A stretch of 64,000 bases of DNA from Picocystis sp. L7 (Eukaryota > Chlorophyta > Picocystophyceae > Picocystales > Picocystaceae). The notes under the pieces are model-generated. The model made no database searches. It was not told the DNA's origin and worked only from the letters and a program-made list of their open reading frames with translations. Below are positions 1 to 30,000 of this stretch, in pieces (the stretch's first letter is position 1; each line of letters starts with the position of its first letter). Made by a program: the position numbers and the translations under genes. The stretch covers positions 310,001-374,000 of the forward strand of contig QXJR01000004.1 in the NCBI GenBank assembly GCA_020975725.1, written 5' to 3'.

Positions 1-2985
1 ACCTGTTTTGCTGACCACTGCTGCGTATATCTCATCATAGTCTTCTCCAGGTTTCTGATGACAGCCAAGTGCTACCAGCCTTGCCTTGTATTTGGTGATG
101 TTGTTCATTTCATCCCTTTTTACTCTGAAGATCCATTTGGACCCCAGTGGTTTCTTGCCTGCAGGTAGGTCACAGATGTCCCATGTTCTCATCTTTGAGA
201 GGGACTCCAGTTCATTGTGGATTGCCTCAGACCAGAGATCCTTGTCCGGCCTTTTCATAGCTTTGTGGTATCCATCAAATTTGTCTGGGAGTCCTTCTGT
301 GAGGTAAGCTTTGAAATTGGTCTGTCTGTTTGGCCTCAGATTGTATCGCTGACTGTTTTCCTCTTCCGCTGGTTCAGGTTCCTCTTCTTCTTGCTCTTCA
401 TCAGAGCTCTTGCTGGATAGCTCCCACTGATCTGGAGTTTCCATTGAGTCTTCGAGATACATTGTTTGTTCATTTTCTGTTGATCTGTTGTACTGACCCA
501 TTTGCTCTTCATTGAATCGAACATTTCTGCTGGTTACCAGTCTGTTGCTTAGTAGTACACGGTAAGTCGTGGAGTTTTCATACCCAATGAAAATTCCTTT
601 TTCACTTCTGGGTTCAAATTTGCTTGTCCACTTTTCTTTGGGCTTCAGTACCCATGCTTCGCATCCAAAGGTTCTTAAGTGGCTAACTGATTGTTTTCTT
701 CCTGTTAATTTTTCCAGGGGGGATTTGGTTTCTGCTCCATGAGTGGGGGGCAGTTTGTTTCTGGTGTAGGCGTAGGTCCGTACGGCTTCTCCCCAGTATT
801 TTTGTGGTAGGTTACTCGCGTTCAGCATCGTGCTCGCGTGCTCTCTTATGTCTCGGTGGAGTCTTTCTGCGTCGTTTTGTTGGGGGGCGTAGCCAGCTGT
901 TTTTTCGTGTTCTATTCCCCGTTCTGACAGAAAATCTGCGAGTTGTTTTCCCAGGAACTCTTGTCCCAGGTCAGTTCTGATGGCTCGTACGCGTTTTTTT
1001 TCCTTCTGCCTTTTGTTCCAGCACGTTTATGGCTCTTCTTGCATATTTCCCTGTGTGACCTTTTGATTGCATCAGGTACACTAGGCATGTCTTGGTTGCA
1101 TGGTCCAGAGCAGACATGTAGTATCTGTGTCCTCCTGGTGTTTCAGGGTGTATGGGACCAACTACGTCCATGTACACTAGATCCAGTGGTTCATATTGGT
1201 AGTCTTTTGGCTTGAATTTGGTCGCTGTTTGCTTGTTTTCTGCACAGGCATTACAGTTTTCGCTCAGTTTGTATGGTAGTCCGAGCTTTTTGATTCTGCT
1301 GCTGTGTATGTGGCCCAGTCTTTGGTGCCATATACTTGCTGTTGCAGCAAAGCAGTAGTTTGCGCTCTCTGTTAGATTGGCTTTTATGGTCTTGTCTCCT
1401 TGGGTGATGAGGCAGGTTCCTTTGTTGAACCTTACTGATGCTCCGTTGTCTGTCATGCAGGTTACCGAAATCAGGTTGGCTGAGAGTCCTGGTACATATA
1501 CTACGTTCTGCAGTTCTATTTTGGTTTGGTGGTCATCCTTCAGTGTCAGTTTTACTGTTCCTATTGCTTTGGTCTCTAGGAGTGTTCCATCTGCTATTTC
1601 TATGTGACCAGTGTGAGCTCTTAGTGTGGTGGTGTCCAGAAAATCTTGGTTCCCTGTCATGTGCCAGCTGGCACCTGAGTCTATTATCCAGGTCTCATTG
1701 TTCTGTCCTTTGAGTTTTGCACTGTTGGCTACTAGGCTCATTGGTCTTTCAGTCCTTTTGGTTTGGAGAGTGTCGCTGCTTCTGTTTCTTGGTGGGTATG
1801 CAGCTTTGAAGAATCTGCATATTTCCAGCGTGTGGCCGGGTTTTTTGCAGTATTGGCATTTTTGTTTTTGTGATCCAGTTTGTGGTTTGTTTTCTGGTTC
1901 TTGGGTCATGTATGCTCTACCTTTCCTCAGATATGCTTCCTCATAGGCCAGGGATTCTCTGACACGGGCCATGGTTAGCTTCTGGTGGTAGTGCTTCAGC
2001 GTTACCACTACCATGTGGTAATTATCTGGAAGTCCATCCAATACTTGGTGGCACACTTCCTCTTCAGGTATGTCGATGTTAATTTGTCTCAGTTCATCTA
2101 CCACCTGGACGATGTTGTTCATGTATTGATCAACTGACTGGTCACTGCGTTTACGAGTTTTTGCGAGCTTTTCTTTCAGTTCTCCTTCTCTGAGGAGTCC
2201 AGTATGCTGGTACAGTTCCTTTAGTGTGGTCCATACTTGATGAGCTGTGGTACAGGTGGTTATGTGTCCACTGTACTCTTCACTTACGCAGTTCATTATG
2301 CAGCAGCGGGCTTGCTGCATTTTGTTATACATGGCTTGATGCTCCATTTTCATTTCTCCATCCTTTTCTTTTTCCACCTTTGGTTCTTCTGCAGTCACAG
2401 TCCACAGATTGTGGATTCTCAGATAATTTTCCATTCTGATGAACCATTGTCTCCAATTCTTACCATTTAGCTCAGGCACAGCAGTCGTTGCTGCTGGGTC
2501 CACCATGTTGTTGGTGTGTTGAGGCTTTCAAGGCTCTTAACCTGTTAGAAAGAACTTGATCAGGGTCCTTCTGTGTGGGACAATTTGGGTCACGTTGTGA
2601 GTCTGATCCGAGGGTTTCGTTGCTGCGAAGGTTTTCTCCTTCTCTGTGGTAGCGATCCACACGAGAGGCACGTCGTTGGCGATGCAGGCGCGTTGCTCGA
2701 AGGCAGATGGGCGGTGTTGGTTGGTAATGCAAAAACTGATTACAGGTAAAGTCGCGAGCGCTTTAAATACTGCGTTCTAGCGAGTTTGTCGAGGGGTTGG
2801 TCGCCTCGTATTCTCCGCAAGCTGATCATCCTCTTCGTCACGTGCGTTCAGGGGCTTCTGCGTCCTGAACGTCTTCGTCGGTTCTTCCGTCTCGACTTGC
2901 TGGGAAGTACTGTTTTGGCGCGTCTTCCTTTGGGCTTGGTTCAGTACGGGGCTGTGTCTTACTGGAAAGGGTATTCCTTCCAACA
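1..2985 (-). mobile_element. Second Ty1/copia copy, cut by the window edge
   Basis: Positions 1-2985 repeat 4272-7256 at a constant offset of 4271 with no difference seen by eye or in the translations. In its own direction this copy holds the 5' LTR (2543-2985), primer site, gag, protease, integrase and the first part of reverse transcriptase, and then leaves the window. It shares its LTR with the copy to the right, giving an LTR-internal-LTR-internal tandem. Such tandems arise by LTR-LTR recombination or by integration of a multimer; an assembly error is also possible. It looks as young and as nearly whole as its partner. Confidence 0.9.
2543..2985 (-). repeat. Shared copia LTR (443 bp)
   Basis: Identical by eye to 6814-7256. 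It is the 3' LTR of the right copy and the 5' LTR of the left copy. The end of the pol reading frame runs into it, as is common in compact copia elements. Confidence 0.9.
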
Positions 2986-5900
2986 CTCCCACTCAGCTCT
3001 GTATTGGTCCAGGTCATTCCGAGTTGCTGTATGCATAGCTTGAATTTTGCTGTTGGTACTTGTTTTGTCAGATAGTCAGCCCACATTTTTTCTGTTTCGC
3101 AGTAGTTCATTTCCACTTCATTTCTCATTGCTCGTTCTCGTATGAAGTGATGCTGGACATCAATATGTTTGGCCCGTGTGACAGATTGTGGGTTCTTTAG
3201 CAGTCTGAGTGTTGACTGGTTGTCGATTAGTATTGTGACTTTGACTTGTTTTGGATTCAGCAGTTGTTGGACTAGGTTTCTGATCCATAGACTTTCTTTG
3301 ATTGCAGCAGAGGCTGCCTGGTATTCGGCTTCAGTTGTGGAGGTAGCTATTGTTGGTTGGAGCTTGCTCTGCCATGATACTAGTCCACCCAATACTTGAA
3401 TGGCAAATCCAGTTCTAGACCTTCTGTTGTCTTTGTCACTTGCATAGTCTGCATCGCTGTATGCAGTGATTTGTATGGCTTGGTTTTCATCTTCAGTCGT
3501 TCCGGTATAGTTAAGCTGAAGGTCTTCAGTTCCCTTGAGATACTTCAATGTTCCTCTCATGGCGTTCCAGTGGATGCTTGTGGGGCAGGTATTGTATCTT
3601 GCGAGTACTGAGGCTGCGTGAGTAAGGTCTGGTCTGGTTGTCCCACCGAGGTACTGGAGCTGTCCCACGATTTTTTGGTATGTGGTCTGTGCCACTATTT
3701 CTCCTTTTTCTTCGCTGGTAACTGGTACTGACAAGGGTTTTGTATTTGGTTTGCATTCAGTGACTCTGTGCTGCTCCAGGTACTCCTTTACCTTTGCTGC
3801 TTGTTCCATGCTCATGATTCTGTTATTGCGATCTCTGCTGATGGTTATTCCTAGGAAATTTTTGGCTTCTCCCAGGTCAGTGGCCTTGTAGTGTTGCCTG
3901 ATTAGATCTTTAATTTGGTTTATGAGTGTTGTGTTTTTGCTGGCTAACAGGATGTCGTCTACGTAGAAACACAGGTAGCAGGTTCCTTGGTCAGTCCGGC
4001 ACTTCAGCATGTTCTCATCCACTCTTATGCACTCGAATTTCATCTTCTTGAGTGTCTTTGTTAGTTCTTGGTTCCAGACTCTAGGTGCCTGTTTGAGTCC
4101 ATACAGGCTTTTGTTCAGCTTGAGAGCTTGGTTTTCTGTCCTTTTGTTGAGTCCATCTGGTATTTTGAGGTATACCTCATCTTCCAGGTCAGCATTTAGG
4201 AATGCTGTTTCGATGTCCATCTGGTGCATTTCCAGATCCAGGTGATTGACTGCTGCGAGAAATATTCTCAGACCTGTTTTGCTGACCACTGCTGCGTATA
4301 TCTCATCATAGTCTTCTCCAGGTTTCTGATGACAGCCAAGTGCTACCAGCCTTGCCTTGTATTTGGTGATGTTGTTCATTTCATCCCTTTTTACTCTGAA
4401 GATCCATTTGGACCCCAGTGGTTTCTTGCCTGCAGGTAGGTCACAGATGTCCCATGTTCTCATCTTTGAGAGGGACTCCAGTTCATTGTGGATTGCCTCA
4501 GACCAGAGATCCTTGTCCGGCCTTTTCATAGCTTTGTGGTATCCATCAAATTTGTCTGGGAGTCCTTCTGTGAGGTAAGCTTTGAAATTGGTCTGTCTGT
4601 TTGGCCTCAGATTGTATCGCTGACTGTTTTCCTCTTCCGCTGGTTCAGGTTCCTCTTCTTCTTGCTCTTCATCAGAGCTCTTGCTGGATAGCTCCCACTG
4701 ATCTGGAGTTTCCATTGAGTCTTCGAGATACATTGTTTGTTCATTTTCTGTTGATCTGTTGTACTGACCCATTTGCTCTTCATTGAATCGAACATTTCTG
4801 CTGGTTACCAGTCTGTTGCTTAGTAGTACACGGTAAGTCGTGGAGTTTTCATACCCAATGAAAATTCCTTTTTCACTTCTGGGTTCAAATTTGCTTGTCC
4901 ACTTTTCTTTGGGCTTCAGTACCCATGCTTCGCATCCAAAGGTTCTTAAGTGGCTAACTGATTGTTTTCTTCCTGTTAATTTTTCCAGGGGGGATTTGGT
5001 TTCTGCTCCATGAGTGGGGGGCAGTTTGTTTCTGGTGTAGGCGTAGGTCCGTACGGCTTCTCCCCAGTATTTTTGTGGTAGGTTACTCGCGTTCAGCATC
5101 GTGCTCGCGTGCTCTCTTATGTCTCGGTGGAGTCTTTCTGCGTCGTTTTGTTGGGGGGCGTAGCCAGCTGTTTTTTCGTGTTCTATTCCCCGTTCTGACA
5201 GAAAATCTGCGAGTTGTTTTCCCAGGAACTCTTGTCCCAGGTCAGTTCTGATGGCTCGTACGCGTTTTTTTTCCTTCTGCCTTTTGTTCCAGCACGTTTA
5301 TGGCTCTTCTTGCATATTTCCCTGTGTGACCTTTTGATTGCATCAGGTACACTAGGCATGTCTTGGTTGCATGGTCCAGAGCAGACATGTAGTATCTGTG
5401 TCCTCCTGGTGTTTCAGGGTGTATGGGACCAACTACGTCCATGTACACTAGATCCAGTGGTTCATATTGGTAGTCTTTTGGCTTGAATTTGGTCGCTGTT
5501 TGCTTGTTTTCTGCACAGGCATTACAGTTTTCGCTCAGTTTGTATGGTAGTCCGAGCTTTTTGATTCTGCTGCTGTGTATGTGGCCCAGTCTTTGGTGCC
5601 ATATACTTGCTGTTGCAGCAAAGCAGTAGTTTGCGCTCTCTGTTAGATTGGCTTTTATGGTCTTGTCTCCTTGGGTGATGAGGCAGGTTCCTTTGTTGAA
5701 CCTTACTGATGCTCCGTTGTCTGTCATGCAGGTTACCGAAATCAGGTTGGCTGAGAGTCCTGGTACATATACTACGTTCTGCAGTTCTATTTTGGTTTGG
5801 TGGTCATCCTTCAGTGTCAGTTTTACTGTTCCTATTGCTTTGGTCTCTAGGAGTGTTCCATCTGCTATTTCTATGTGACCAGTGTGAGCTCTTAGTGTGG

Positions 5901-6777
5901 TGGTGTCCAGAAAATCTTGGTTCCCTGTCATGTGCCAGCTGGCACCTGAGTCTATTATCCAGGTCTCATTGTTCTGTCCTTTGAGTTTTGCACTGTTGGC
6001 TACTAGGCTCATTGGTCTTTCAGTCCTTTTGGTTTGGAGAGTGTCGCTGCTTCTGTTTCTTGGTGGGTATGCAGCTTTGAAGAATCTGCATATTTCCAGC
6101 GTGTGGCCGGGTTTTTTGCAGTATTGGCATTTTTGTTTTTGTGATCCAGTTTGTGGTTTGTTTTCTGGTTCTTGGGTCATGTATGCTCTACCTTTCCTCA
6201 GATATGCTTCCTCATAGGCCAGGGATTCTCTGACACGGGCCATGGTTAGCTTCTGGTGGTAGTGCTTCAGCGTTACCACTACCATGTGGTAATTATCTGG
6301 AAGTCCATCCAATACTTGGTGGCACACTTCCTCTTCAGGTATGTCGATGTTAATTTGTCTCAGTTCATCTACCACCTGGACGATGTTGTTCATGTATTGA
6401 TCAACTGACTGGTCACTGCGTTTACGAGTTTTTGCGAGCTTTTCTTTCAGTTCTCCTTCTCTGAGGAGTCCAGTATGCTGGTACAGTTCCTTTAGTGTGG
6501 TCCATACTTGATGAGCTGTGGTACAGGTGGTTATGTGTCCACTGTACTCTTCACTTACGCAGTTCATTATGCAGCAGCGGGCTTGCTGCATTTTGTTATA
6601 CATGGCTTGATGCTCCATTTTCATTTCTCCATCCTTTTCTTTTTCCACCTTTGGTTCTTCTGCAGTCACAGTCCACAGATTGTGGATTCTCAGATAATTT
6701 TCCATTCTGATGAACCATTGTCTCCAATTCTTACCATTTAGCTCAGGCACAGCAGTCGTTGCTGCTGGGTCCACCAT
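2838..6777 (-). CDS. Copia gag-pol coding region
   Basis: This region encodes the copia structural and enzymatic proteins. Visible motifs are a CCHC zinc knuckle (CQYCKKPGHTLEIC), the protease motif DSGASWHMT, the pre-integrase zinc motif starting WHQRLGHIH, an integrase core, reverse transcriptase with YVDDILLAS, and RNase H with DADYASDKDNR. Order and motifs are those of the Ty1/copia superfamily. The start is the methionine just inside the primer site. The region is treated as a fossil: nearly whole, about one interruption. Confidence 0.88.
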
Positions 6778-12606: not shown

Positions 12607-12611
12607 ACATA
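12607..12611. repeat. Left target-site duplication ACATA
   Basis: The five bases ACATA directly precede the left LTR and recur directly after the right LTR at 20353-20357. Five bases is the usual size for Ty3/gypsy integrase. The outermost LTR bases at the 3' end are ambiguous by two, because AC is shared by the LTR junction and the duplication. Confidence 0.8.
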
Positions 12612-13323
12612 TGTAACGGCCAGCGAGGCCTCCCAGGGTCCCTACGAGACCCTGGCCTACGGGACTAGACCCCCGGGACCCCATATGGATGAAGGGCAAT
12701 GGTGTCCCCTCTCAAACAACCGCTGTACCGTTCCGGAACTGGAGTCAGTCCCCTTGGGGGTTCGTATTGAAGGAAGGTCGCCCCGGTTCAGAACGGGCTT
12801 CCTGTAAGGGACATCGGGGATTTGGACCGAAACAGACCGACTGAAGGGGACCGACCCCATCTCTACCTTTCCTTCTGGAAGGTAGGGCTGGGGTGCTGGA
12901 CGGTGTCGATGCGACTGCCAGCTCACGTTCGCCCCGGGGCGAACGCAACGGACGGTCAGATGTGACTCTAGGGAGCACGTGGGCTGCCATGACACCCCAG
13001 TTGCCCCAATTCCAACCGCCAGTGAGAGGCGGTGAGAGAGGTAGACCCTTGGTCCCTCTTTGCTTTGTGATACACTTCTTCTACTTGCCAAGCCAAGTGC
13101 GCAACACGCCTCCTCCTCCGACCCTGACCAACGCAACAGGCGAAACCACCTGGACGCTCCAGCACGTCCGTTCTCGCCTCCCACGCCGGCCGAGGCTCCT
13201 TCAACGCAAGGGAGAAGAGAGAGAGAAGAAGACCCCGGTACAAGGGGTGCGAATCCCGTCCACGAGACCCTCGTCACCAAGAGTACGTGTGTTGGGTCAT
13301 TCAACCACGGACGCAAGTCTAAT
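12612..13323 (+). repeat. Ty3 5' LTR (712 bp)
   Basis: Begins TGTAACGGCC and repeats at 19641-20352 with a constant offset of 7029. GC-rich. Several open frames cross it on both strands, but they show no recognisable protein and are duplicated with the LTR. Confidence 0.92.
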
Positions 13324-13370
13324 ACTGTCGAAGCCTACTCTTGGGAGAAGACGGCGTTTCGTTTGCAAGA

Positions 13371-14627
13371 ATGGACGATACGGACCACGCCACAAGAATG
13401 AGCACTCTCCGAAGAGAGCTTGAACAAGAACGAAGCGAAGGGCACACCCTCCGTGAAAGAGTTGCTGATCTTGAAGCCCAAGTCGAGGCTCTTCAAGCCA
13501 TACCACCTGATGATCATCAATTGGAAGCCACGAAAGACCTCCTCGATGGTGATGACTCTCCAAGTACCGAGCAAGGCGCTCTCGCCGAACCCATCAGTTT
13601 GTCCGAAGAAAAGGGGCTCCCACACCTCACAAGTTTGTATGGGACAGCATTGCAAGACTCCAAGAACATACAAAAGGTCTCCCTTGAAAAACCTACCAAG
13701 TTCACTGGGCTGGAGCTTGAGGAAGACCCCTACTCCCTCACCTATTGGTATAGGGATGTGTTGTGTTGGTGCCAGGCCTACGCCTTCGATCGACCGAAGG
13801 AACAATTGGTCCTAGCCATCAGTCAAGCACTTGGAGGAACAGCCAAGTCCATGGTCCAAAACCTCATCATGAAGGATCCTGATGCTTTGCAATCGGTGGA
13901 GGACCTGCACTCATATTTGAAAAAGACATTTCAAAACCAAGATCCAGGCCCCGAAGCGTGGCGCGAGTTCCACACCACCAGAATGAGAAGGTCAGAAAAT
14001 GTTTTGCACTTTTTGAACAGGTTGGTGCAGCTCAGCTTTGTGGTGAATGCCAGCAGCTCTCCTGTTTGCCGTACTCTGTCCGAGCATGACATATCAGCCA
14101 GGCTACAACATGGTCTGCCAACATACCTCCAAAAGGCTTTGTATAAACACCTGGAGCATCTAATTGATGTTGATAAGGTTCCGGACATGGAACCAGGCAA
14201 CCTGGCAGCCACCATATTCAAACTTGAACGCGAGGCGGCTGAACCAACAAGGAAGGATATCAAACAGCCTGATGAAAAGTGGAGAGGACGATCGCCCGTG
14301 AATCGCGAGTACCGACCGACACCGCAGCGAGCGGTGTATCGCTCTGCAGCCATAGCAGCTGCCATGCCAACTCAGCAGCAGCAAACAGCAAGAAGCGACG
14401 GATACCCCAAGCGTCAGCACAAGCGGTTCGATGATTTGGAAGAGGAACAGAAAAATGCGATCATCAAAGTCCAAACACAGCTGGCCAGCAAGCCACTTGG
14501 GGGTAAACTTACCCCAGAGGAAAAGAACCTTTGCCTTGCACATGCTCTGTGCCAGCGATGCCGTCGATATGGTCATGATCAATCAGTCTGCAAGATGGCA
14601 TCAGTGATGGGCGCGCCAAAAAACTGA
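13371..14627 (+). CDS. Ty3 Gag protein
   Basis: 418 aa from the first ATG of the frame. An N-terminal coiled coil (about 10-50, rich in RELEQERSEG-type heptads) is followed by a retrotransposon Gag domain and a C-terminal CCHC zinc knuckle (CQRCRRYGHDQSVC). It would form the particle and bind element RNA. Its stop overlaps the pol ATG as TGATG, compatible with the re-initiation or frameshift strategies known in the family. Looks whole. Confidence 0.85.
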   Translation: MDDTDHATRMSTLRRELEQERSEGHTLRERVADLEAQVEALQAIPPDDHQLEATKDLLDGDDSPSTEQGALAEPISLSEEKGLPHLTSLYGTALQDSKNIQKVSLEKPTKFTGLELEEDPYSLTYWYRDVLCWCQAYAFDRPKEQLVLAISQALGGTAKSMVQNLIMKDPDALQSVEDLHSYLKKTFQNQDPGPEAWREFHTTRMRRSENVLHFLNRLVQLSFVVNASSSPVCRTLSEHDISARLQHGLPTYLQKALYKHLEHLIDVDKVPDMEPGNLAATIFKLEREAAEPTRKDIKQPDEKWRGRSPVNREYRPTPQRAVYRSAAIAAAMPTQQQQTARSDGYPKRQHKRFDDLEEEQKNAIIKVQTQLASKPLGGKLTPEEKNLCLAHALCQRCRRYGHDQSVCKMASVMGAPKN

Positions 14628-17600
14628 TGGCTCTCCGTCCGGTAACGCAGGTTACCGCGACGGAGCCGGGAGCGAAAACTGCAGCCGCCCCGGTGAACAA
14701 CAGTAGAGATCCAGTCTGCTTACACTCATTGACTAATGTGAAACCAAGACAGGAATTTCTTGCTGCAGAAACATACTTTGGAAACAGGAAACAGAGAATT
14801 AGAACCCAGGCCTACCTGGATACTTTAGCAAGTCACTGCTTTATCAGTGAAAAGCTTTTCAAGAAACTGCAGGATGCTGACCCGTGCCGTTCATCTTGGC
14901 AGTATACGACAGACAGCGTCGATTTCACAGTGGCTGTGGGCCAAGATGTTCACACTGCACCTGTGATTGAAGCTACGTTTACGATCGATGGATTCCGCAC
15001 TCGCATGAACTTTGGAATAGCACCTCTGGAAACGTTCGATTGTATCCTGGGAGCCACCTTCTGCCATCAGCATTTGGAGGCACTGGACTGGCAGCAACAC
15101 AGAATGATCCTGCGCGGACGCAATGGAACCAAGTTTACAGTGTATGGGGATCATCAGTTCCTGTCTTCAAGGAAACTGGACCTCATCGTGCCCCGGAGCG
15201 AAGCTCGCGCAGCAGTCAAGGACCCAGGCTGCTTGTTACTCATGATACAGCCTATGGACCCCACTCCAGAAATGATAAGTGAGGAAGAAGACTTCAGCAG
15301 AGTGCGCAGCCAACTCAGCGATGCATGGGACCTGGATGACCAAGACCAGGCCCGGCTAGATGACCTGATAGAAAAGAAATATAAGCACCTGTTTCAGCCT
15401 CGTACCGAGTTACCGCCCGAACGAGTACCGGGAGAGATGTTCAAGGTTCAATTGATGGAGGGCGCTACGCCCCAATATCGTAATTACTACCGGCTGTCCC
15501 CGCAGCAGCAGACTGCACTGAAGGAACTGATCGCCGAGTACGTAGACGCAGGTAAGATGGACCTGTGTGCTGGATCCAGCTGGGGAGCCCCAGTCATACT
15601 GGTTCCCAAGAAGGACGGCGGATGGCGAGTCGTTTTTGACTACCGCCTTCTCAACAACGTTACGGTCAAGGATCGCTATCCTCTGCCGAGGATCGATGAC
15701 TATCTGCAGAACTTGAGGGGAGCCAAGTACTTTTCATCGCTTGATGCGATGGATGGCTTCCATCAGATCAGAATGGACCCAGATGATGTGGACAAGACTG
15801 CTGTGGTGACCCCCTTTGGGTCATTTGTATGGAAGGTCATGCCGATGGGGGCTGCGAACGCGCCATCGATGTTCCAGCGCATGATGAATAGAGTGTTTGG
15901 GCACCTGCTATATTTAAAAGTGTACATGGATGACATCTTAGTACACTCAGAGACAAAACAGCAGCACTTTCAGCATCTGGAGGAGTTCTTCGCCGTATGC
16001 GAACAAGCCGATATTCGGCTCAAGCGATCAAAGTGTCACTTTTTCATGAGCACCCTGGAATGGGTAGGCTTTCGCATTCGAGACGCGCAGTTGGCCTGCA
16101 CAGGCCGTCTCCTCGACAAGATCCAGCAGTTCCCGCGCCCCACATCGCAGTGCGAAAATATGGCTTTTCTGGGGTTATGTCAGTTCTACATGCGGTTTGT
16201 TCCTCACTTTGCGGAATTGGCTTCCCCACTTACAGAGTTGAACCAAGCATCACTGAAATACAACTTTGCTGCATACTGGAAAGAGCCACAGGAGAAAGCC
16301 TTCCAAAAACTGGTGACAGCTTTAAATAGCCCACCAGTACTGGCTCTCTTTGATGAGGACAAACCCATCAGGGTAGAGACAGATGCCTCAGATATTGGTA
16401 TGGGTGCGTCGCTGATGCAGCAGGATGAACAAGGCACATGGCGCCCCGTCGAGTACTGGTCGAAGAAGTTCAACAGCGCGCAACAGAATTACCACCCTGC
16501 AGAAAAGGAAACCTGCGCGATACTTTATGCATTGCAACACTGGAGACATCTTTTATTTGGGCAGAACTTTACGGTCATTACCGATAACAAGGCCAGTCAT
16601 TTTCTCAATACCAAGGCCACTGAACAACTTTCCCCCAGAGAAATGAGATGGGTGGAGAAGCTGGCTTACTTTGCTCCATTCACTGTGGAGTACAGACCTG
16701 GCTCTGAAAATATTGGACCGGACTATCTCTCTCGCCATTCAGCCCAGGTTAGGAAAGGAACAGTATATTGCATACTTGATTTGTGTGCTGGGATGGGCAC
16801 TACGCTCCGTGCACTGGAGATGGTCATACCAGAAACTGCGGAATACAGCTTGGACTACATTGCAGTTGAGAAAGACGCGGACTGCAGAAGCGTCATCCAG
16901 CGCGTGTTCAATCAAGTGCGCCTGGCTCGGCCAGGCCTGTTCGTTCGCAAGGACATCTTCCGATATGGTGACGATGTTGCTGCTCTGGCGCATCGTCGAA
17001 AGCTTCCCCCAGTTCACCTGCTCATTGCAGGTGTGCCTTGCCAGCCATTCTCGCGCGCAAACACAGATGCAAGTAAACCTCCGCTGGGCCTTTACGATGA
17101 TCGAGAACTCTTTACAGCTGTGGGAAAACTTCACAGACGGCTACGATCGCCAGACTTTGTGATAGAGTGTACCCCGTTTGCACCCCACCTGGAATCTCAC
17201 CTGGACACAATCTCCCAATGGTTTGGGGAACCCAGTACTGAAGACCTTTCTCAGTATGGAGCGCAAGCACGGACCAGGCTCTGTTGGACCTCGCTGCCAC
17301 CAGCCCCGGTATCAATGGGCACAACGAAACATACTCCCCTCACGTGGCAGGAATGTTTGGATCCAGGGGCACACGCCCCGAAAGACGCTTTCGACAGGCC
17401 TCGTCTTAAATGCCCCACCCTGATGGCCAGCGCACGGTCCCATAGTGACCGCTCGCGATCCACCTGGGTACACGGCAATGACGGGGAGCTCCGTCCGCTG
17501 ACCACCAGCGAGCGTGAGCGACTGGTAGGAGTACAGGCAGGTGACACTGCTGCAGTTGATGTCAGTGAAGCCGGTCGACAGCGCATGTGCGGCAACGCCT

Positions 17601-19612
17601 TTCCAGTAGGATGGATTGCCCACATGTTACTCCGCTGGATACACCACACACGGACGCTTCGACCGCTAGCCGGCCGCAGTCCTGATCGGACTGTGTGTGG
17701 CTCGATTGCGTCTCTTAATACCTTCAGCCCGATACCATCCGCTTCAGAAGCTGGTGGTCAAGAGATACCTCCTATACTGGATCGCATACGCATCGCAGCA
17801 AAAAGAGACCAGAGTTATCAGGACATGCTCAGCGCACCACCGCAAGACTGCACTGTCCAAGACAATCTGCTGTTCACATCAGGACCACACTCACAGCCAG
17901 TACTTGTGGTACCTGCTGATAATGGTATAAGGCAAGAGTTACTCCACCTGGTACATGACCCCAGGCATTTTGGAAAAGATCGAACCTTTACGGAAGCTGC
18001 CAGACACTTCACCTGGAAGGACATGCGCCACCACGTACGACACTTCGTTGCAAGATGCCCAGTATGCCAATTGCAGAAACCAGGTAACCGTACTCGGCAC
18101 GCGTTGTTGTGTCCAGAACTAAGGTTCCACCCGTACCCGTTCCACACTGTAGTGATGGATGTGGTGGAAAACCTGCCACTTACTGCCCAAGGTCATAATG
18201 CTGTGCTTACAGTCGTGGACAGGTTTACGAAGTTTGCGATATACGTACCAATCCACTCCACTTGGAGCGCGTACCGGCAGGCCCAGTGCCTGATGGACCA
18301 TCTGGTGTACAGGTATCACACCCCAGTGCACATTCACACTGATAATGGACCGGCGTACCGGACCCTGTTTAAGGCGTTCTGCGCAGCGTTGGGCGTGCGA
18401 CATGTGACGGGCACCCCATACCATTCACAATCCCAAGGTGGGGCAGAGAGGCAGCACAGAACCTTACTGCAGACGCTACGCTCTACCTGTTCAAACAAGC
18501 ATCAATGGGATATCTATTTACAAGCAGCAGCTCATGCCTACAATGACTCTGTGCATGCTGCTACTGGTCACTCACCATTTGAATTATTGTATGGCTGCCC
18601 ATCCAGGTTACCTTGGCATCTACAACTGCCCAACAGTGGACCGCACCAACACATGGATCAGGTCACCACTTATGACCAGAAGGTGTCAAACCTCCTGGAG
18701 CAGCACCGTGCAGTTTACAAAGCGGTCCTGAAGAATCTGAGCAGGGCTGCAGAAAGCATGGGTAATCTGAAATCCAAACGGCGCCCCAAAAGCTTCGCAG
18801 TTGGCGACAAAGTAAAAGTCCAGTACGGACTGAAGGGCCCGACCGACAAACATAAGCTGGATCCATACTATGTGGGCCCCTATGTGATCAAGCAAGTGCT
18901 ACAGAATGGTGCTTACCAATTAGATCTACCCCAAGGATCGGCCTTCTCCGATCGTATACACGTAGACAGACTGGAACCATGGATTGATTCAGATCTTACG
19001 CTCTTCCCGATGGATGAGCATCTACAGCCAGCAGCAGCACCGCTTCCGGATACTCGGGCCATGCAGGATGAGACTACAGCGTACCGCATACGCCGATATC
19101 TACTGCGGGACTATTCAGCCTTCCCTGCGCAGCCCGTACGATACTGGGTTGAGGGAAACATTGCTGATCCGTCGCAACGCTACTTCTGGGTAGATGAGAC
19201 AGCAACCTTATTGGAGGAATTCCTCCCCTTGGAGGAACAAAATGGATGCATACCAGAGCAAGGGATTTTGCCAGCGAACTTCGATGCCGTGCAGACTCAT
19301 AAGAAGACAACTTATTTGCAGTCTCCGAACCCGATCATGGCGAACACCTGGCCATATCATAAGCTACCGTACCAGACACGCCGGCGCCCGCCCTCTCCAC
19401 CAAGGACAACTCTACTGAACAGTGTGGTACAGGAGCTGTTTTATTTGGAGGGACAGGACCAACCGGCATACTTTCAGGGGATGGTGCATGCATACCAAGA
19501 CAACCAGTATGAAGTACTATGGACAGATGGGAAAAAGGATTACTATCAGGAAGAACAAATCAAGGCTATGCTGTATGACCCAGTTTCGTACATATATGAC
19601 TTCCAGCTCTAA
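14627..19612 (+). CDS. Ty3 Pol polyprotein with embedded methyltransferase
   Basis: A 1661-aa frame. In order: retropepsin-like protease (AYLDTLASHCFIS, about 65); reverse transcriptase (about 320-500, with FSSLDAMDGFHQIRMDP and YMDDILVHS); RNase H (starting VETDASDIGMGASL, about 580-705); C5 cytosine methyltransferase (about 711-1005); H2C2 zinc domain (ending CPVCQLQKPGNR); integrase core with HTDNGPAY and GGAERQHRT; and a C-terminal tail. The tail has a chromodomain-like stretch around 19080-19230 and a Tudor-like stretch ending WTDGKKDYYQEEQIKAML near 19570. The methyltransferase position between RNase H and integrase is not part of the standard Ty3 plan. Looks whole. Confidence 0.92.
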   Translation: MALRPVTQVTATEPGAKTAAAPVNNSRDPVCLHSLTNVKPRQEFLAAETYFGNRKQRIRTQAYLDTLASHCFISEKLFKKLQDADPCRSSWQYTTDSVDFTVAVGQDVHTAPVIEATFTIDGFRTRMNFGIAPLETFDCILGATFCHQHLEALDWQQHRMILRGRNGTKFTVYGDHQFLSSRKLDLIVPRSEARAAVKDPGCLLLMIQPMDPTPEMISEEEDFSRVRSQLSDAWDLDDQDQARLDDLIEKKYKHLFQPRTELPPERVPGEMFKVQLMEGATPQYRNYYRLSPQQQTALKELIAEYVDAGKMDLCAGSSWGAPVILVPKKDGGWRVVFDYRLLNNVTVKDRYPLPRIDDYLQNLRGAKYFSSLDAMDGFHQIRMDPDDVDKTAVVTPFGSFVWKVMPMGAANAPSMFQRMMNRVFGHLLYLKVYMDDILVHSETKQQHFQHLEEFFAVCEQADIRLKRSKCHFFMSTLEWVGFRIRDAQLACTGRLLDKIQQFPRPTSQCENMAFLGLCQFYMRFVPHFAELASPLTELNQASLKYNFAAYWKEPQEKAFQKLVTALNSPPVLALFDEDKPIRVETDASDIGMGASLMQQDEQGTWRPVEYWSKKFNSAQQNYHPAEKETCAILYALQHWRHLLFGQNFTVITDNKASHFLNTKATEQLSPREMRWVEKLAYFAPFTVEYRPGSENIGPDYLSRHSAQVRKGTVYCILDLCAGMGTTLRALEMVIPETAEYSLDYIAVEKDADCRSVIQRVFNQVRLARPGLFVRKDIFRYGDDVAALAHRRKLPPVHLLIAGVPCQPFSRANTDASKPPLGLYDDRELFTAVGKLHRRLRSPDFVIECTPFAPHLESHLDTISQWFGEPSTEDLSQYGAQARTRLCWTSLPPAPVSMGTTKHTPLTWQECLDPGAHAPKDAFDRPRLKCPTLMASARSHSDRSRSTWVHGNDGELRPLTTSERERLVGVQAGDTAAVDVSEAGRQRMCGNAFPVGWIAHMLLRWIHHTRTLRPLAGRSPDRTVCGSIASLNTFSPIPSASEAGGQEIPPILDRIRIAAKRDQSYQDMLSAPPQDCTVQDNLLFTSGPHSQPVLVVPADNGIRQELLHLVHDPRHFGKDRTFTEAARHFTWKDMRHHVRHFVARCPVCQLQKPGNRTRHALLCPELRFHPYPFHTVVMDVVENLPLTAQGHNAVLTVVDRFTKFAIYVPIHSTWSAYRQAQCLMDHLVYRYHTPVHIHTDNGPAYRTLFKAFCAALGVRHVTGTPYHSQSQGGAERQHRTLLQTLRSTCSNKHQWDIYLQAAAHAYNDSVHAATGHSPFELLYGCPSRLPWHLQLPNSGPHQHMDQVTTYDQKVSNLLEQHRAVYKAVLKNLSRAAESMGNLKSKRRPKSFAVGDKVKVQYGLKGPTDKHKLDPYYVGPYVIKQVLQNGAYQLDLPQGSAFSDRIHVDRLEPWIDSDLTLFPMDEHLQPAAAPLPDTRAMQDETTAYRIRRYLLRDYSAFPAQPVRYWVEGNIADPSQRYFWVDETATLLEEFLPLEEQNGCIPEQGILPANFDAVQTHKKTTYLQSPNPIMANTWPYHKLPYQTRRRPPSPPRTTLLNSVVQELFYLEGQDQPAYFQGMVHAYQDNQYEVLWTDGKKDYYQEEQIKAMLYDPVSYIYDFQL
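16756..17650 (+). other. C5 DNA cytosine methyltransferase domain inside Ty3 pol
   Basis: About 295 residues continuous with the pol frame. C5-methyltransferase motifs are visible: motif I DLCAGMGTTLRAL (cofactor site), motif IV GVPCQPFSRAN with the catalytic Cys, motif VI FVIECTPF with the conserved Glu (ECT where ENV is usual), motif VIII QARTR, motif IX RERLVGVQAG, and motif X GNAFPVGW. All catalytic motifs are present, so the domain may be active. PCQ rather than PCN makes it unlike canonical animal DNMT3. Target specificity cannot be read from the sequence. I recall methyltransferase-bearing retroelements reported from dinoflagellates and the charophyte Klebsormidium. Confidence 0.9.
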
Positions 19613-19640
19613 TTCAGATCGTCGCAGTGAGCCGGGAGAG

Positions 19641-20352
19641 TGTAACGGCCAGCGAGGCCTCCCAGGGTCCCTACGAGACCCTGGCCTACGGGACTAGACC
19701 CCCGGGACCCCATATGGATGAAGGGCAATGGTGTCCCCTCTCAAACAACCGCTGTACCGTTCCGGAACTGGAGTCAGTCCCCTTGGGGGTTCGTATTGAA
19801 GGAAGGTCGCCCCGGTTCAGAACGGGCTTCCTGTAAGGGACATCGGGGATTTGGACCGAAACAGACCGACTGAAGGGGACCGACCCCATCTCTACCTTTC
19901 CTTCTGGAAGGTAGGGCTGGGGTGCTGGACGGTGTCGATGCGACTGCCAGCTCACGTTCGCCCCGGGGCGAACGCAACGGACGGTCAGATGTGACTCTAG
20001 GGAGCACGTGGGCTGCCATGACACCCCAGTTGCCCCAATTCCAACCGCCAGTGAGAGGCGGTGAGAGAGGTAGACCCTTGGTCCCTCTTTGCTTTGTGAT
20101 ACACTTCTTCTACTTGCCAAGCCAAGTGCGCAACACGCCTCCTCCTCCGACCCTGACCAACGCAACAGGCGAAACCACCTGGACGCTCCAGCACGTCCGT
20201 TCTCGCCTCCCACGCCGGCCGAGGCTCCTTCAACGCAAGGGAGAAGAGAGAGAGAAGAAGACCCCGGTACAAGGGGTGCGAATCCCGTCCACGAGACCCT
20301 CGTCACCAAGAGTACGTGTGTTGGGTCATTCAACCACGGACGCAAGTCTAAT
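19641..20352 (+). repeat. Ty3 3' LTR (712 bp)
   Basis: Same sequence by eye as 12612-13323. It is preceded by a short purine-rich tract (GGGAGAG) suited to plus-strand priming and followed by the ACATA duplication at 20353-20357. Confidence 0.92.
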
Positions 20353-20357
20353 ACATA
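20353..20357. repeat. Right target-site duplication ACATA
   Basis: Second copy of the 5-bp duplication that brackets the Ty3 element. Confidence 0.8.
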
Positions 20358-24086: not shown

Positions 24087-27000
24087 ATGGTTGCCGAGCG
24101 CGAATCGAAGGGGATGGAGCGTTCGGCAAGGTACTGTGCATCAGGCGGAGTTAAGGTCGCGGACTTTCTAGACATGACGAGACTGAGCACCTTCGAGGAA
24201 CAACTCGAGAATGGGGTTTTGATGGAAGCAAAGGCCATGACTGGTCAAGGTAAGTGGAAGAAATGCTTGGTCAAGTCGTTTGAGAAGGATAGCGGGTTGT
24301 ACACCATTCAGACTTCAAGAGGTGAGTATATGACGCTTCCTCGGACACATGTACTGTTCGAGGTAGAAGATCAGATGAACTTCGCGAAGGCAGTTGAGGA
24401 ATCATATAAAAAGTGCGAGGTTCACGAAAAGCTGGTATTCTATAGAATGTGCCTTGAAAGCATACCATGTGATAACCTTGACCCAGTGAATGTAGCCTGG
24501 CTTCAGGAAATTCTCAAGAAGTCTATTCATTCATTGAGTCTGAGGGACCAGCATTCTATGCTTGATATCATGGATGAAATAAATTCTGAGTATATGCGGA
24601 GCATCAACAAAGTTCTGCTTGAGACGAATCTGGACAACATATCAGAGATGTCAGAATTTTTGAATGATTTTAGAGCAAGTTACCCCTCGGAATGCATTGT
24701 ACCTGTCATCCCAGAATTAGCAGGTTCAAAGGCTGTTATTCATGAATCCACCCAGATTCTTCAGAACGACTCTTATCTCACCTCATCAGAGGCTCTGGAT
24801 ATACTGAGTGTTGAGAAATCCGAGAGTTACCAAGTTTCCGAGCTCTCTTTTTTCTCCACTGACAACTCAGACACATTCGAGGTCGGCAAGTTCCAAGATA
24901 TGCAGCTTAAGCGTTGCGCAAGTGTTTCTGAGCGACTCTTGGAGAAGTGGATTCCAGGATTGCAACTTGCGATACAAAATGCTTGCAAGGGTAGCACGAA
25001 GAGCTGGCTTTCTGTGCAAGAATGCAGGCTGTGGCTATATGAAAGTAGTAAGATGAAACGATTCCTCACTTTGCTGAGGATCCAAATGGAAGATACGGTC
25101 CGAGGCATGGTCATTACTTCCTTGCAAAGGTATGTCAGCTTTATGGAAGCTCAGATTTCTAGTACAGGCCATGCCAGCACGACTGGAAGACAGGGCTGCT
25201 TCAATGATGCTTGCAGTAATCCAGTATTTCTAGTGCACCTTGTTGCGGATAAAGGCGAACTCTCCCTCAATCCGAGTCTTCAATCTCTTGAAAGCTCCTT
25301 TGCTGATATATTTGAGACCATGGTATCCTCATCGTCAAACTTACCACAACTCGAGCCACTAGTCATGGAGAATCTTCTCTGGGAAGAACCCATGGCCCTT
25401 CGTGTTCTAGATGGAGAAGATCCTGAAGTAGTTTCTCTTAGGCAAAGACTAAGCATAAGCTCCCAGCTACTTACGAGTGGACTGCAAAGTCAGATGACAG
25501 TTCTTGATGTCCTGAATCCCATTGTCTGTTGTGATGCAAAGGCATACTTGTCAGAGATGAAGCATAATGGCAGAGTAACTGATTTGGAATATATGAAGTC
25601 TGAGCTTTACAGGCATTTGCAGGATGTCGAAGCTATCAAGCGCACCCTCAGTAACGACATCACAGCTGCCTCCTTTTGCATTAAAACTGCTGAGGCAAGG
25701 AAGGTGTTGCTAGATAAGAAAAACACCATGATTGAAGGTTGCGAGGAATTGCTATTGGCAGAGGCCCTTCGAAAGACCAGGACCCTCAACCAAGAATACG
25801 AAGAGATGTCAGCGCAGCTGACAGCACCAACATCTTGTCCCGAGGATATCCAAGAGAGGCATGCACTTATCCAGAATCTGCCCCTTACCTTGCAGGCCTT
25901 TCAAAACCAGACCAGAAAAATCGAGGCATACTATCAATTCCTTTTTGAACTGAAATGCCCTCTGTCAGATGAAAACTTTGCTGCAAAGTCTGAAAGCTAC
26001 TCGTGGCCCCTGCACATTTTCAATCAAGCTCAAGATATTTCGCAAATGTTGCGGGAGGACTTAGAGAAATATAAAGGGGACCAAAAGCAGCAGCAGGTGG
26101 AGCTAGATTTGAGAATTACAGTGTTGGGAGAAGACATTGCGTCTATTCTGGGCGGTGATTATTTGCTCGCAGAGACTGACCATTCAATTGAGATAGGAGA
26201 CATCTATGCACAACTGGTTGAGGTAGACAAGCTCTGTGAGACCATTAATAACCGAGAAGATATTTTTTCGCAGAAAGCCACGGACTACTCAAGGGTGAAG
26301 AAGCTTGTACAGGAGCTGGAACCTCATTATCTGTTTTGGAAGACTGCTGCAGATTGGACAGCTGCAAAAGCTTCTTGGCTTCAACAGCCTTTTCATGGTC
26401 TTAGCCCTGGAGAAGTTGAGGAGGGGCTGAAAGAGACATGGGAACTTGCATCTAGACTGGAGACAACCTTTGCACAAAGAAGGTTGGAGAAGTACACGCT
26501 TCTATGCATTGCTTGCAGAGAAGAAGTCGAAACTTTCCAGAGTTACTGCTCAGTTCTGTCAGCACTTCGCTCAGACGCGTTGCGAGAGCGTCACTGGGTT
26601 CGCCTTGCTCATCTGGTGGGAATCCCAATGTGCAATTCTGACCCCCTCACTCTAGAGAAGCTCATCCAGGCAGGATTCATGAGGCTCGAGGACCAGATAC
26701 TGGATATATGTAGCACAGCACTCAAAGAGTTTGCTATCGAACAAGCCCTTGACAGGATGGTGTGCGAGTGGGATGATATCCTTCTAACAGTTGTAAAATA
26801 CAGAGAGAGCGGCACTTTTGTCATCAAAGTTGAAGACAGCATTACCCAGCAGTTGGATGACCATATTGTGATGACACAAGCCATGGGATTCTCGCCGTAC
26901 AAAGGGCCGTTTGAAGCTAAAATCCAATTGTGGGAGAGAAAGCTGGCGCTGATAAGTGAGGTTCTTGATGAGTGGATGGCTCTTCAGAAGTCATGGATGT

Positions 27001-30000
27001 ATTTGGAACCTATTTTTACCAGCGATGACATTATGCAACAATTGCCTGTGGAAGGGAAAAAGTTTGCGCAGGTCAATCAGATGTGGAGAAAAACTTTGGA
27101 CGAGGCTCGTGAAAACAGCCATTTGTTGTCTGTCTGTTCGTCTGGTGACCTCCTAGAGAGCTTTAGACAGTCCAACGAGACTTTGGAGCGAGTGCAAAAG
27201 GGGCTTGCTGATTACTTGGAGACAAAACGCTTAGCGTTCTCTCGTTTCTTCTTCTTATCTAATGATGAACTGCTGCAGATATTATCACAGACAAGAAACC
27301 CACGAGCTGTTCAGCCACATCTACATAAGTGCTTTGAGGCCATTGAGAGTCTGGTGTTTGAGGACGACCAAAAAATTGTTGGAATGAGAAGCAAGGAGCA
27401 GGAAGTAGTTCCTTTTAATGAGTATATGTATCCAGAGGGAAGTGTTGAGAACTGGTTGTGTGATGTAGAAAGGATTATGCGGTCCTCAATCCGTGAGCAG
27501 ATCCTTTCTTGCCTAGATGACTTCCATCACAGAAAACGAGAAGAGTGGGTGCAATCTTGGCCAGCAATGTGCGTACTTGCAGCGAATTCGATCATTTGGA
27601 CTTCCAGGACTGAGGAAGCCATTGCAGAGGGGAGCTTAGAAGAATGGTATGCAGTGAACATCCAACAGCTTGATGACCTTGCAGACTTACTTGCAGGGGA
27701 TCTGAGCCATCTGGATAGACTCACAATAGGTGCACTGATCGTGCATGACGTGCATGCACGAGATGTGATCCAAAGGCTTATAGATGAGAATGTGTCCTCA
27801 ACGGCAGACTTTGAATGGATTTCGCAGCTCAGATACTACTGGCAAGATGGGAATGTGTACGTGAAGATGGTGCAAGCTTGTCTTGAATATGGCTATGAAT
27901 ATCTTGGAAATCAACCCAGACTCGTCATCACCCCACTTACCGATCGTTGCTACATGACGCTAATGAGTGCAATGCATCTGAACCTTGGTGGTGCTCCAGC
28001 CGGCCCGGCCGGAACAGGAAAAACTGAGACAACGAAAGATCTGGCCAAGGCCCTTGCGAAACAGTGTGTCGTATTCAATTGTTCAGATGGTTTGGATTAC
28101 ATTGCAATGGGAAAGTTTTTCAAGGGTTTGGCTGCCTCGGGAGCATGGGCTTGCTTTGATGAATTCAACAGGATTGACTTGGAAGTTCTTTCAGTCATTG
28201 CACAACAAATCTTGACCATTCAACTTGCCATACAGCAGAAAGTTGAAATTTTCACCTTCGAAGGTACACAAATCAAGTTGAACCCGTCGTGTGCAGTTTT
28301 CATAACAATGAATCCCGGGTATGCAGGACGGTCGGAATTGCCTGACAATTTGAGTGCGCTCTTTAGACCATGCGCAATGATGGTTCCAGACTATGGCCTC
28401 ATTGCTGAAATATCCTTGATGTCCTTTGGTTTCAAGAATGCCAGACACTTGGCCAAGAAGATGGTTGCCACTTTCAAACTTTGTTCCGAACAGCTGTCTA
28501 ATCAAGACCACTATGACTATGGCATGAGGGCGGTGAAAGCTGTTATCACTGCTGCTGGCAATCTGAAAAGAGAGAATCCAGCAATGGACGAAGAATCTCT
28601 CCTTTTGAGGGGGCTGCGCGATGTGAATGTCCCCAAGTTTCTTTCTCACGATATTCCATTGTTTGAGGGAATAATAAGTGATCTCTTTCCTGGCGTACGA
28701 AAGAGCGAGGTGAACTACACAGATCTGATAGAGGCAGTACGCTTTGCTTGCAAAGAAATGAACTTGCAAGCAACAGCTCATTTCATCGAAAAGGTCATAC
28801 AGCTTTATGATATGACACAAGTCCGACATGGAATGATGCTGGTAGGTCCCACTGGTGGAGGGAAGACAGCCTGCTATCGAGTTTTAGCAAGGGCCTTAAA
28901 TCACCTTTCCGAGACGATGAGGACTCACCCTGGCGTCAAAATGGTAGTACTGAACCCAAAGTCGGTGACCTTAGGCCAGCTTTACGGAGATTTTGATGAA
29001 GCCACTCACGAGTGGACCGATGGTCTTCTCGCTTGCTACATGAGAGAATTTGCCGAAGACACATCTACTGCAAAGAAATGGATCATATTTGACGGCCCAG
29101 TTGATGCTATTTGGATTGAAAATATGAACACTGTACTGGACGATAATAAGAAGCTTTGTCTAGTCTCAGGGGAGATCATCCAGCTCACCACAAGTATGTC
29201 CATGATTTTCGAGGTGGAAGACCTAGCAGTGGCTTCACCAGCTACGGTCAGTCGATGTGGTATGATCTACATGGAACCTGGTGCTTTAGGATTGGAACCG
29301 TTGTTTCAATCCTGGCTAGATACACTTCCAAAAGAGTATGCGGAACTGAAGGAGAGATTTATGGATATATTTATCAACCTTGTGCTGGGTGAAGAAGGCG
29401 TTCTGGGGCACCTCCGAAAGCACAGCAACGAAATTGTGGGCACGGTGGATTCCAGTCTTGTATCTGGTCTTTGCAAGCTAATGGGTTCCTTGATCAAGGA
29501 ACAACTTGCAAGTTGGGTCGATAACGGAGAACATAGCCATTCTTTGCAAGATAATGTGCGCGTAGACGGACTCCCACTTTTTTTGTTTTCGATGATTTGG
29601 TCCATCTGCAACACCGTGGACCAAGCATCCAGAATTGACTTGGAACGGTTTGTGCGCAAACGCATATGTGATCTGGGCCTGGAGTGCTACATGCCGCCAA
29701 CGGAAAATAGCATGTACGATTACTTCTACGGCACTTTGGAGCACCATTGGCTGTTGTGGATGGAGAAACTGCCACAGTACACTCCTAGGATGGATGGCCA
29801 GTCAGGCACAGTTCTTGTGCCCACACTTGAAACTGTGAGCAATGGCTTCCTTCTGGATAAATTACTGAAAAATAATTGCCATGCCCTGTGTGTTGGTGAC
29901 ACTGGAACGGGAAAAACAATGACGGTTACAGACAAGTTGACAAACCACATGGAAAAGGAATACAAATCTATTTTCGTTACCCTTTCGGCCCAAACGAGTG

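Follow-up and report, generated by a model that had tools for sequence, protein, structure and literature searches.

A DNMT3-like methyltransferase domain in the Pol protein of an abundant Ty3/gypsy element of the chlorophyte Picocystis sp. L7

Cytosine methylation is a usual means of transposon silencing, and it is therefore puzzling that a transposon should carry and maintain a methyltransferase, the source of the mark that usually silences it. The Gypsy case previously documented in detail, as far as the available parts of the article go, is that of one charophyte, Klebsormidium nitens, whose KnitGypsy-Dnmt3 carries a DNMT3 domain (de Mendoza et al. 2018, PMC5890265). This domain has a Ka/Ks below 0.2 and gave no activity in yeast, a result described by its authors as inconclusive. 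The same source reports SymbioDIRS-Dnmt3 of Symbiodinium, which carries out de novo CG methylation in yeast, and SymbioLINE-Dnmt; its authors proposed cDNA methylation as a role for retrotransposon DNMT3 domains (SymbioDIRS) and pointed out that DNMT-less elements also move in the same genomes. The original prediction for the locus described here had pointed to captures in Klebsormidium and in dinoflagellates: the former is indeed a Gypsy element, but those of Symbiodinium are LINE and DIRS elements. DAM- and DCM-encoding Ty3/Gypsy and DIRS elements have been reported from green algae, charophytes and others (Morozov et al. 2019, PMC6338049), named in general terms in the available parts of that article, which do not assign the kind of methylase to particular algae and describe no individual element. 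In the parts available of a 2025 article (PMC12344493), DNMT3s occur inside retrotransposons, there termed Copia and DIRS, and PWWP-bearing ChloroDNMTs are defined; other methylase-bearing transposons are treated in PMC12477816, likewise seen in part. A literature search over titles and the openings of abstracts found no description of DNMT-carrying Gypsy elements in chlorophytes.

The element described here adds to the known DNMT-bearing retrotransposons one with ordinary LTRs and unusual abundance. It occupies positions 12612-20353 of the window, the whole 64,000-nt stretch of Picocystis sp. L7 contig QXJR01000004.1 in whose numbering all positions are given, and both direct LTRs and a target duplication are present. 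With KnitGypsy-Dnmt3, as far as the article is available, it shares the Gypsy domains, a DNMT3-related domain in Pol with its key residues kept, and purifying selection; it differs in its host and in its ordinary LTRs with a 4-bp duplication, the repeats of the charophyte element being described as DIRS-like. SymbioDIRS-Dnmt3 also has a DNMT3-related domain in Pol but is a DIRS element with a tyrosine recombinase. SymbioLINE-Dnmt is likewise a retrotransposon with a C5-methyltransferase, but it is a LINE, its DNMT is of orphan type and lies mostly in a separate ORF1 (PMC5890265, in part). Chromodomain Gypsy elements resemble the present one in having a chromatin-related domain added to pol; those with PF00385 among the best 120 of 2441 reverse transcriptase (RT) matches are at most 43% identical, and none carries PF00145. 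No match labelled Klebsormidium occurs among these best 120 or among the 18 matches to the DNMT region, most matches of both sets being without organism label. The features of the element are as follows.

12608..12611, no strand: left target duplication CATA, 4 bp (sibling-copy comparison)
12612..13324, + strand: 5' LTR, 713 bp (0 differences from the 3' LTR; end placed by siblings)
13371..14627, + strand: gag, 418 aa from the first ATG, the presumed start codon (open frame; gag models weak)
14627..19612, + strand: pol, 1661 aa, ATG overlapping the gag stop (open frame)
15602..16078, + strand: RVT_1 reverse transcriptase (E 1.7e-37)
16277..16672, + strand: RNase H (two models, E 7.3e-36 and 7.4e-35)
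16760..17656, + strand: DNMT3-like C5-cytosine methyltransferase domain, motifs I, IV, VI, VIII, IX and X (Pfam and alignment)
17924..18082, + strand: integrase zinc-binding domain, H2C2 (E 5.9e-14)
18137..18427, + strand: integrase core, rve (E 8.5e-13)
18833..18979, + strand: integrase C-terminal SH3-like domain (E 3.1e-7)
19629..19640, + strand: candidate polypurine tract, purine-rich GAGCCGGGAGAG (directly 5' of the 3' LTR)
19641..20353, + strand: 3' LTR, 713 bp (identity to the 5' LTR; siblings)
20354..20357, no strand: right target duplication CATA, 4 bp (sibling-copy comparison)

The element was inserted recently, as had been predicted, since its 5' and 3' LTRs are identical over their full length. 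Their length, first put at 712 bp, is 713 bp according to eight sibling copies; the identical run between the LTR regions measures 714, the extra base being a chance agreement of the next position. This LTR end also means that the duplication is best read as the 4-bp CATA and not as ACATA. In five of the eight siblings the target duplications match at the 713-bp end (four bases in C25b, C5, C10 and C18, five in C25a), and in C3 three of four bases match. Mismatches between the two LTRs of the eight copies number 0, 0, 0, 1, 1, 6, 9 and 15; the two copies without a duplication, C26 and C20, have 9 and 15, as expected of recombinants. The GAGCCGGGAGAG letters stand at the same place in all eight siblings. 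No TGG start of a tRNA primer site follows the 5' LTR, the best complementarity to the LTR being 9 bases, and Rfam and tRNA scans of the 64-kb window were empty. The gag and pol frames meet at TGATG (14625-14629). Gag has one CX2CX4HX4C zinc knuckle near its C-terminal end, recognised by eye, and is matched weakly by models (Retrotrans_gag, E 0.016); the protease model Asp_protease_2 scores 16.6 bits, below its cut-off of 24.3. Above their cut-offs in the stop-free pol frame (14579-19612) are RVT_1, the two RNase H models, Integrase_H2C2, rve and SH3_Tf2-1, the RT being kin to Gypsy RTs.

The methyltransferase domain stands where it had been predicted, in frame after RNase H and before the integrase zinc domain, and Pol thus reads RT, RNase H, DNMT, integrase zinc, core and SH3-like domain in a single frame. 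PF00145 matches pol with 28.1 bits (cut-off 22) over the motif IV stretch only. In a twelve-copy alignment motifs I (LCAGMGT), IV (GVPCQPFS), VI (IECTPFA), VIII (QARTR), IX and X (GNAFPV) follow in order, numbered by the standard nomenclature. All twelve sequences, three of them close kin, share the core residues of motifs I, IV, VI, VIII and X without exception, down to 34% identity. Among 27 aligned sequences of the same genome AGVPCQP is identical throughout, the Q and R of motif VIII are present in all 25 of them read at that motif, and motif X has GS instead of GN in two.

Several comparisons bear on the kinship of this domain. It matches solved DNMT3A with E 5.5e-6, and a profile of the alignment finds DNMT3B first and DNMT3A next among solved chains (E 2.7e-10 and 1.1e-9), with bacterial enzymes, DNMT2 and DRM weaker and no DNMT1 named among the best 50. 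Against a DNMT3A piece holding motifs IV-X only, 200 profile columns are colinear (E 5.4e-13, score 89), while the host DNMT1 and DNMT2 give short, weak matches. Less specific models also respond: phrog_116 (E 1.3e-21) matches host DNMT1 and DNMT3A as well, and TIGR00675 (dcm) matches all twelve aligned copies, that of the window below cut-off. On the basis of the colinear second half (motifs IV-X) the domain is here called a DNMT3-like C5-methyltransferase; it is called DNMT3-like and not DNMT3 because its motif IV reads PCQ where DNMT3A has PCN.

Among eleven viral and bacterial C5-methyltransferases, chosen as the best pattern matches, all seven viral ones outscore the DNMT3A piece (93-111) and the four bacterial ones score 70-84, in an uneven contest in which the pattern-picked enzymes mostly have motif I and the DNMT3A piece lacks it. 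Six of the seven viral enzymes align over 116-128 columns covering motifs I-VI only, and the seventh, L051, over 241 columns. A distant viral or prokaryotic source of the domain is therefore possible as judged from these alignments. No close one was found in IMG/VR, prokaryote genomes or phage records: IMG/VR yielded 14 loci of at most 33% identity, and phage records no match at E 1e-3. The prokaryote genome collection yielded five loci, four of them 35-40% identical over short stretches and the fifth (L059, 97%) on a contig of algal appearance deposited as part of a Rhodobacteraceae MAG. A DNMT tree rooted on the host's DNMT1 and DNMT2 left the deep branches unresolved, the outgroup branches being too long, and was not used for origin.

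The 20.5-Mb genome holds at least 131 matches to the domain, 53-100% identical and including the window copy (best match E 2.1e-210, in a search that includes the window's own copy). This is a lower bound, 131 of 190 first-pass candidates having been scored, and a few copies are split over two matches. No internal stop occurs in 116 of them, and 55 lie inside stop-free frames of at least 1600 aa. Such numbers rule out a single-copy or chance feature, and the recurrence of the same architecture at many loci rules out an assembly artefact. The survey of siblings that had been suggested finds the domain in many copies, with its catalytic motifs conserved in those aligned, and so not the single occurrence or the loss of motifs among siblings that would have spoken against the original prediction; related lineages whose remnant is dead or doubtful do exist, however. 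For 119 of the 150 best RVT_1 matches, a same-strand DNMT match follows 0.4-2.6 kb downstream, in a pairing that used the 131 domain matches plus 33 PF00145 matches and a distance range chosen by the analyst; 17 of the 31 DNMT-less RVT_1 matches lie in frames of at least 1750 aa, like the L043 family. Copia elements without DNMT are also present (42 matches, pieces included).

A protein search with the DNMT region, whose candidates were the 8000 sequences sharing most words at 0.55-1.75 of query length, gave 18 matches, every one a Gypsy pol that has RT, RNase H and H2C2. Within the best 120 of 2441 RT matches PF00145 occurs in 17; among the 120, the fragment P0019 is the only match with an RT identity higher than 56% to lack it, and P0024, at 56%, lacks it too. 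An RT-RNase H tree was made of 64 rows: the window, 13 of 44 genome loci, the 18 DNMT proteins and 32 of 103 other proteins. A single group of 35 with support 100/98 unites every one of the 31 carriers with both remnant-labelled rows, P0045 and P0019, the deepest joins being less sure given the long branches of L008, L043, P0045, P0024 and others, the long L042/P0018 stem, and a program warning on the joining of L041 and its kin to P0045. A single old capture followed by descent would be the simplest reading of the RT tree and is in keeping with it. Some exchange of domains between lineages is likely, because the DNMT of L042 and P0018 is nearer to that of the window (47-48% identity) than their RT is (41-42%), the reverse of what is seen in six other carrier rows compared; for L042 the dN comparison agrees. 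Two EukProt entries labelled Pavlova lutheri, a haptophyte, adjoin copies from the Picocystis genome in the same tree, so contamination or transfer is possible.

The preferred reading, held with belief and doubt in equal measure, is that of an uninterrupted young Ty3/gypsy element of an old clade, with a DNMT3-like enzyme fixed in Pol that methylates the element's own cDNA before or during integration. The anatomy, the young age, the copy number, the catalytic motifs and the selection on the domain are shown, and the action on cDNA is inferred. Pol would be packaged together with the element RNA and make cDNA, which the tethered DNMT would methylate at or before integration; a new copy would then carry 5-methylcytosine from the moment it enters the genome. 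The host, to judge by homology, has DNMT1-like, DNMT2-like, chromomethylase-like and PWWP-DNMT genes, and a UHRF/VIM-like SRA-RING gene and an RPA1-zinc-knuckle gene, both presumably plant-like, lie within the 64-kb window itself. The chromomethylase-like gene has a chromodomain between its DNMT motifs and a BAH match just below cut-off; it is 100% identical to one database protein and, next to that, 44% to Coccomyxa and 41% to Trebouxia, with land-plant chromomethylases lower. Though a single gene, it points, along with the two genes of the window, to a chlorophyte host as the most likely. The PWWP-DNMT, L004, resembles the PWWP-bearing ChloroDNMTs as defined in the available parts of PMC12344493. 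Since machinery that reads and copies the mark is thus present by homology, the DNMT1-like, chromomethylase-like and SRA-RING proteins may recognise and maintain it, and the new copy would be handled like quiet DNA already in residence, not like a foreign newcomer.

Base composition bears on how lasting such methylation could be. At codon boundaries, CpG observed/expected is 0.57-0.80 in ten DNMT carriers, 0.50-0.83 in eight host frames (that of L002 being its longest frame, neighbour of the DNMT2 gene), 0.37-0.53 in Copia without DNMT (five rows, about three subfamilies) and 0.86-0.89 in the L043 family (three near-identical copies). The host genes sampled are thus CpG-depleted as well. In the rows sampled, carriers thus have no extra CpG depletion relative to host genes or DNMT-less Copia: they are like the former and less depleted than the latter, which counts against the cDNA-methylation proposal and leaves lasting self-methylation without special support. 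The suggestion in the original prediction that the element methylates itself for silence accordingly draws no particular strength from base composition. In a related and rather unlikely scenario, the DNMT would work inside the nucleus, on copies already resident and on their LTRs, and slow transposition, the element gaining indirectly from lesser damage to a compact genome. This would suit the high copy number in 20.5 Mb, and transitions at CpG between copies are about twice those at other C/G positions in carriers (ratios 1.66-2.05 in four DNMT-carrying subfamilies), as expected of methylated DNA; one L043-family pair gives 1.36 from six CpG events, and a pairwise Copia value of 3.17, obtained with flanks untrimmed, is not relied on. 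However, with CpG depletion not above that of host genes or Copia, the signature can be explained without an enzyme encoded by the element, and several insertions in the window's subfamily are recent (LTR mismatches 0, 0, 0, 1 and 1).

The cDNA-methylation proposal must also accommodate the elements that do without the enzyme, such as the DNMT-less Copia of the same genome. These also weigh on the idea, in itself unlikely, that methylated cDNA would be shielded from host or viral nucleases or deaminases acting on unmodified DNA. In general terms only, the sharing of a polyprotein with RT places the DNMT to act on cDNA, and protection and self-recognition are discussed in the available parts of PMC5890265; yet the 42 Copia matches (pieces included) and the L043 family with its doubtful remnant are present in the same genome.

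Relatives with such remnants are a further point against the cDNA-methylation proposal. In P0024 a 240-aa stretch in the DNMT slot aligns with the DNMT profile over 227 columns (E 1.6e-11), a score reached by none of 100 shuffles, and lacks PC, the motif VI context and GN; it is a recognisable DNMT remnant, catalytically dead to judge by these losses. The slot of P0045 is suggestive of a remnant (score 34.7, against at most 33.4 in 100 shuffles and 21.0 in 28 control slots). For L043 the case is weak (22.7, equalled in 2 of 100 shuffles, controls up to 21.0), and a remnant would be proposed mainly from position and from a tblastn alignment continuing from RNase H. With a smaller profile P0024, P0045 and L043 score 75.0, 30.1 and 23.8, the highest of 60 shuffles each being 23.9, 27.7 and 21.2, and none of the three has a Pfam DNMT match. 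The L043 family, of which three copies were read (L043, L066 and L067), has frames near 2670 aa and about 200 aa in the DNMT slot; its Pol frame continues into a Dam-like adenine-methyltransferase domain inside its LTR. A slot kept at such length in L043, and over 227 columns in P0024 despite the lost motifs, would be compatible with a domain that serves mainly as a structural spacer or nucleic-acid-binding module, catalysis being secondary. This is quite unlikely for the carriers, in which the catalytic residues are among the invariant columns, and a spacer would not need them.

Selection on the domain was judged within the genome. The 27 sequences of the same genome offer, for each region, 15 pairs whose dS is 0.1-1.5; over these few and related pairs, median dN/dS is 0.092 for the DNMT (range 0.085-0.118), 0.018 for RT plus RNase H and 0.039 for the integrase. 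Seven comparisons with the window inside its subfamily give 23 nonsynonymous and 51 synonymous differences in the DNMT, a pN/pS of 0.150, against 0.099 for RT plus RNase H and 0.076 for the integrase. Between subfamilies synonymous sites are saturated in most pairs, and DNMT dN is 0.05-0.79. In both comparisons constraint is weaker on the DNMT than on the other two enzyme regions, a point against the cDNA-methylation proposal, as is the GS in 2 of 27 sequences; these substitution patterns plainly indicate that the DNMT is kept by purifying selection, less tightly than RT and integrase. Selection had been predicted from the identity of the LTRs. The conclusion holds (131 matches, dN/dS about 0.09) but not the argument, since it is the conservation of the domain among divergent copies that speaks for it. 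A passenger domain of no present use would fit the weaker constraint and nothing more; it is highly improbable given a dN/dS of about 0.09 and catalytic motifs invariant across saturated synonymous divergence.

A wider reading, doubtful but worth stating, is that the DNMT slot may mark an entire, ancient clade of Gypsy elements in green algae and plankton, with one capture, long use of cytosine methylation in the replication cycle and repeated decay to dead remnants in side lineages. In the L043 family, whose Pol frame continues into the Dam-like domain and whose CpG is little depleted, another chemistry may have taken its place. The genome of Picocystis sp. L7 holds, in 20.5 Mb, more than 100 domain copies of many ages, young insertions, and carrier and non-carrier families together. 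Gypsy elements with the DNMT, Gypsy elements with a doubtful remnant and Copia elements without it stand side by side in a host that has, by homology, the readers and maintenance enzymes of the very mark that usually silences them.

In a sibling Gypsy family typified by locus L043, a different methyltransferase domain, a Dam-like adenine methyltransferase (PF05869, E 3.7e-13) with the catalytic motif HPPC, forms the end of frames of about 2670 aa. The genome search returned 101 Dam matches, among which 23 same-strand pairs are spaced 8.0-8.25 kb apart. Because the domain of one pair, on contig C3, sits within a 645-bp repeated stretch with a single mismatch between the copies, the LTR of this family encodes the Dam-like domain. 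Dam matches without a partner may be solo LTRs. This family and several features in or near the window are as follows:

Loci L043, L064-L067 and L092 (genome G000, contigs C3, C4, C19 and C25): Dam-like Gypsy family
971-6777 and G000:C2:308729-314800: tandem pair of Copia elements
24087-35600: dynein heavy chain, 3837 aa, single frame
50647-52530: RING - SRA - RING gene

The RT parts of the tandem Copia elements are 100% identical and 4.27 kb apart, and the two elements perhaps have one LTR in common. The single-frame dynein heavy chain points to an intron-poor genome. The RING - SRA - RING gene resembles the plant VIM/UHRF methylation readers. Four methyltransferase genes of the host (L001-L004) are of the DNMT1-like, DNMT2-like, chromomethylase-like and PWWP-DNMT (ChloroDNMT-like) types. 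Among the 123 of 177 candidates scored in the PF00145 search, with the match at C20:156478 set aside, none was evident as a DNMT3 gene of the host's own.

Sequences close to the window element also occur under other organism labels. L059, a contig of 4.7 kb assigned to a Rhodobacteraceae MAG, carries a DNMT domain 97% identical to that of the element and is probably algal contamination in a bacterial bin. Two EukProt proteins labelled Pavlova lutheri (P0004, P0019) are close to the element copies of the genome studied here, through either contamination or recent transfer.

Contigs C3 and C4 hold 54 of the 131 DNMT matches scored in G000, a lower bound, together with 12 of the 15 matches with stops, and are perhaps outlier chromosomes. 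In locus L042 and database protein P0018, the DNMT domain is nearer to that of the window element than the RT is, which suggests, on sequence closeness, that the domain has been swapped between Gypsy lineages.
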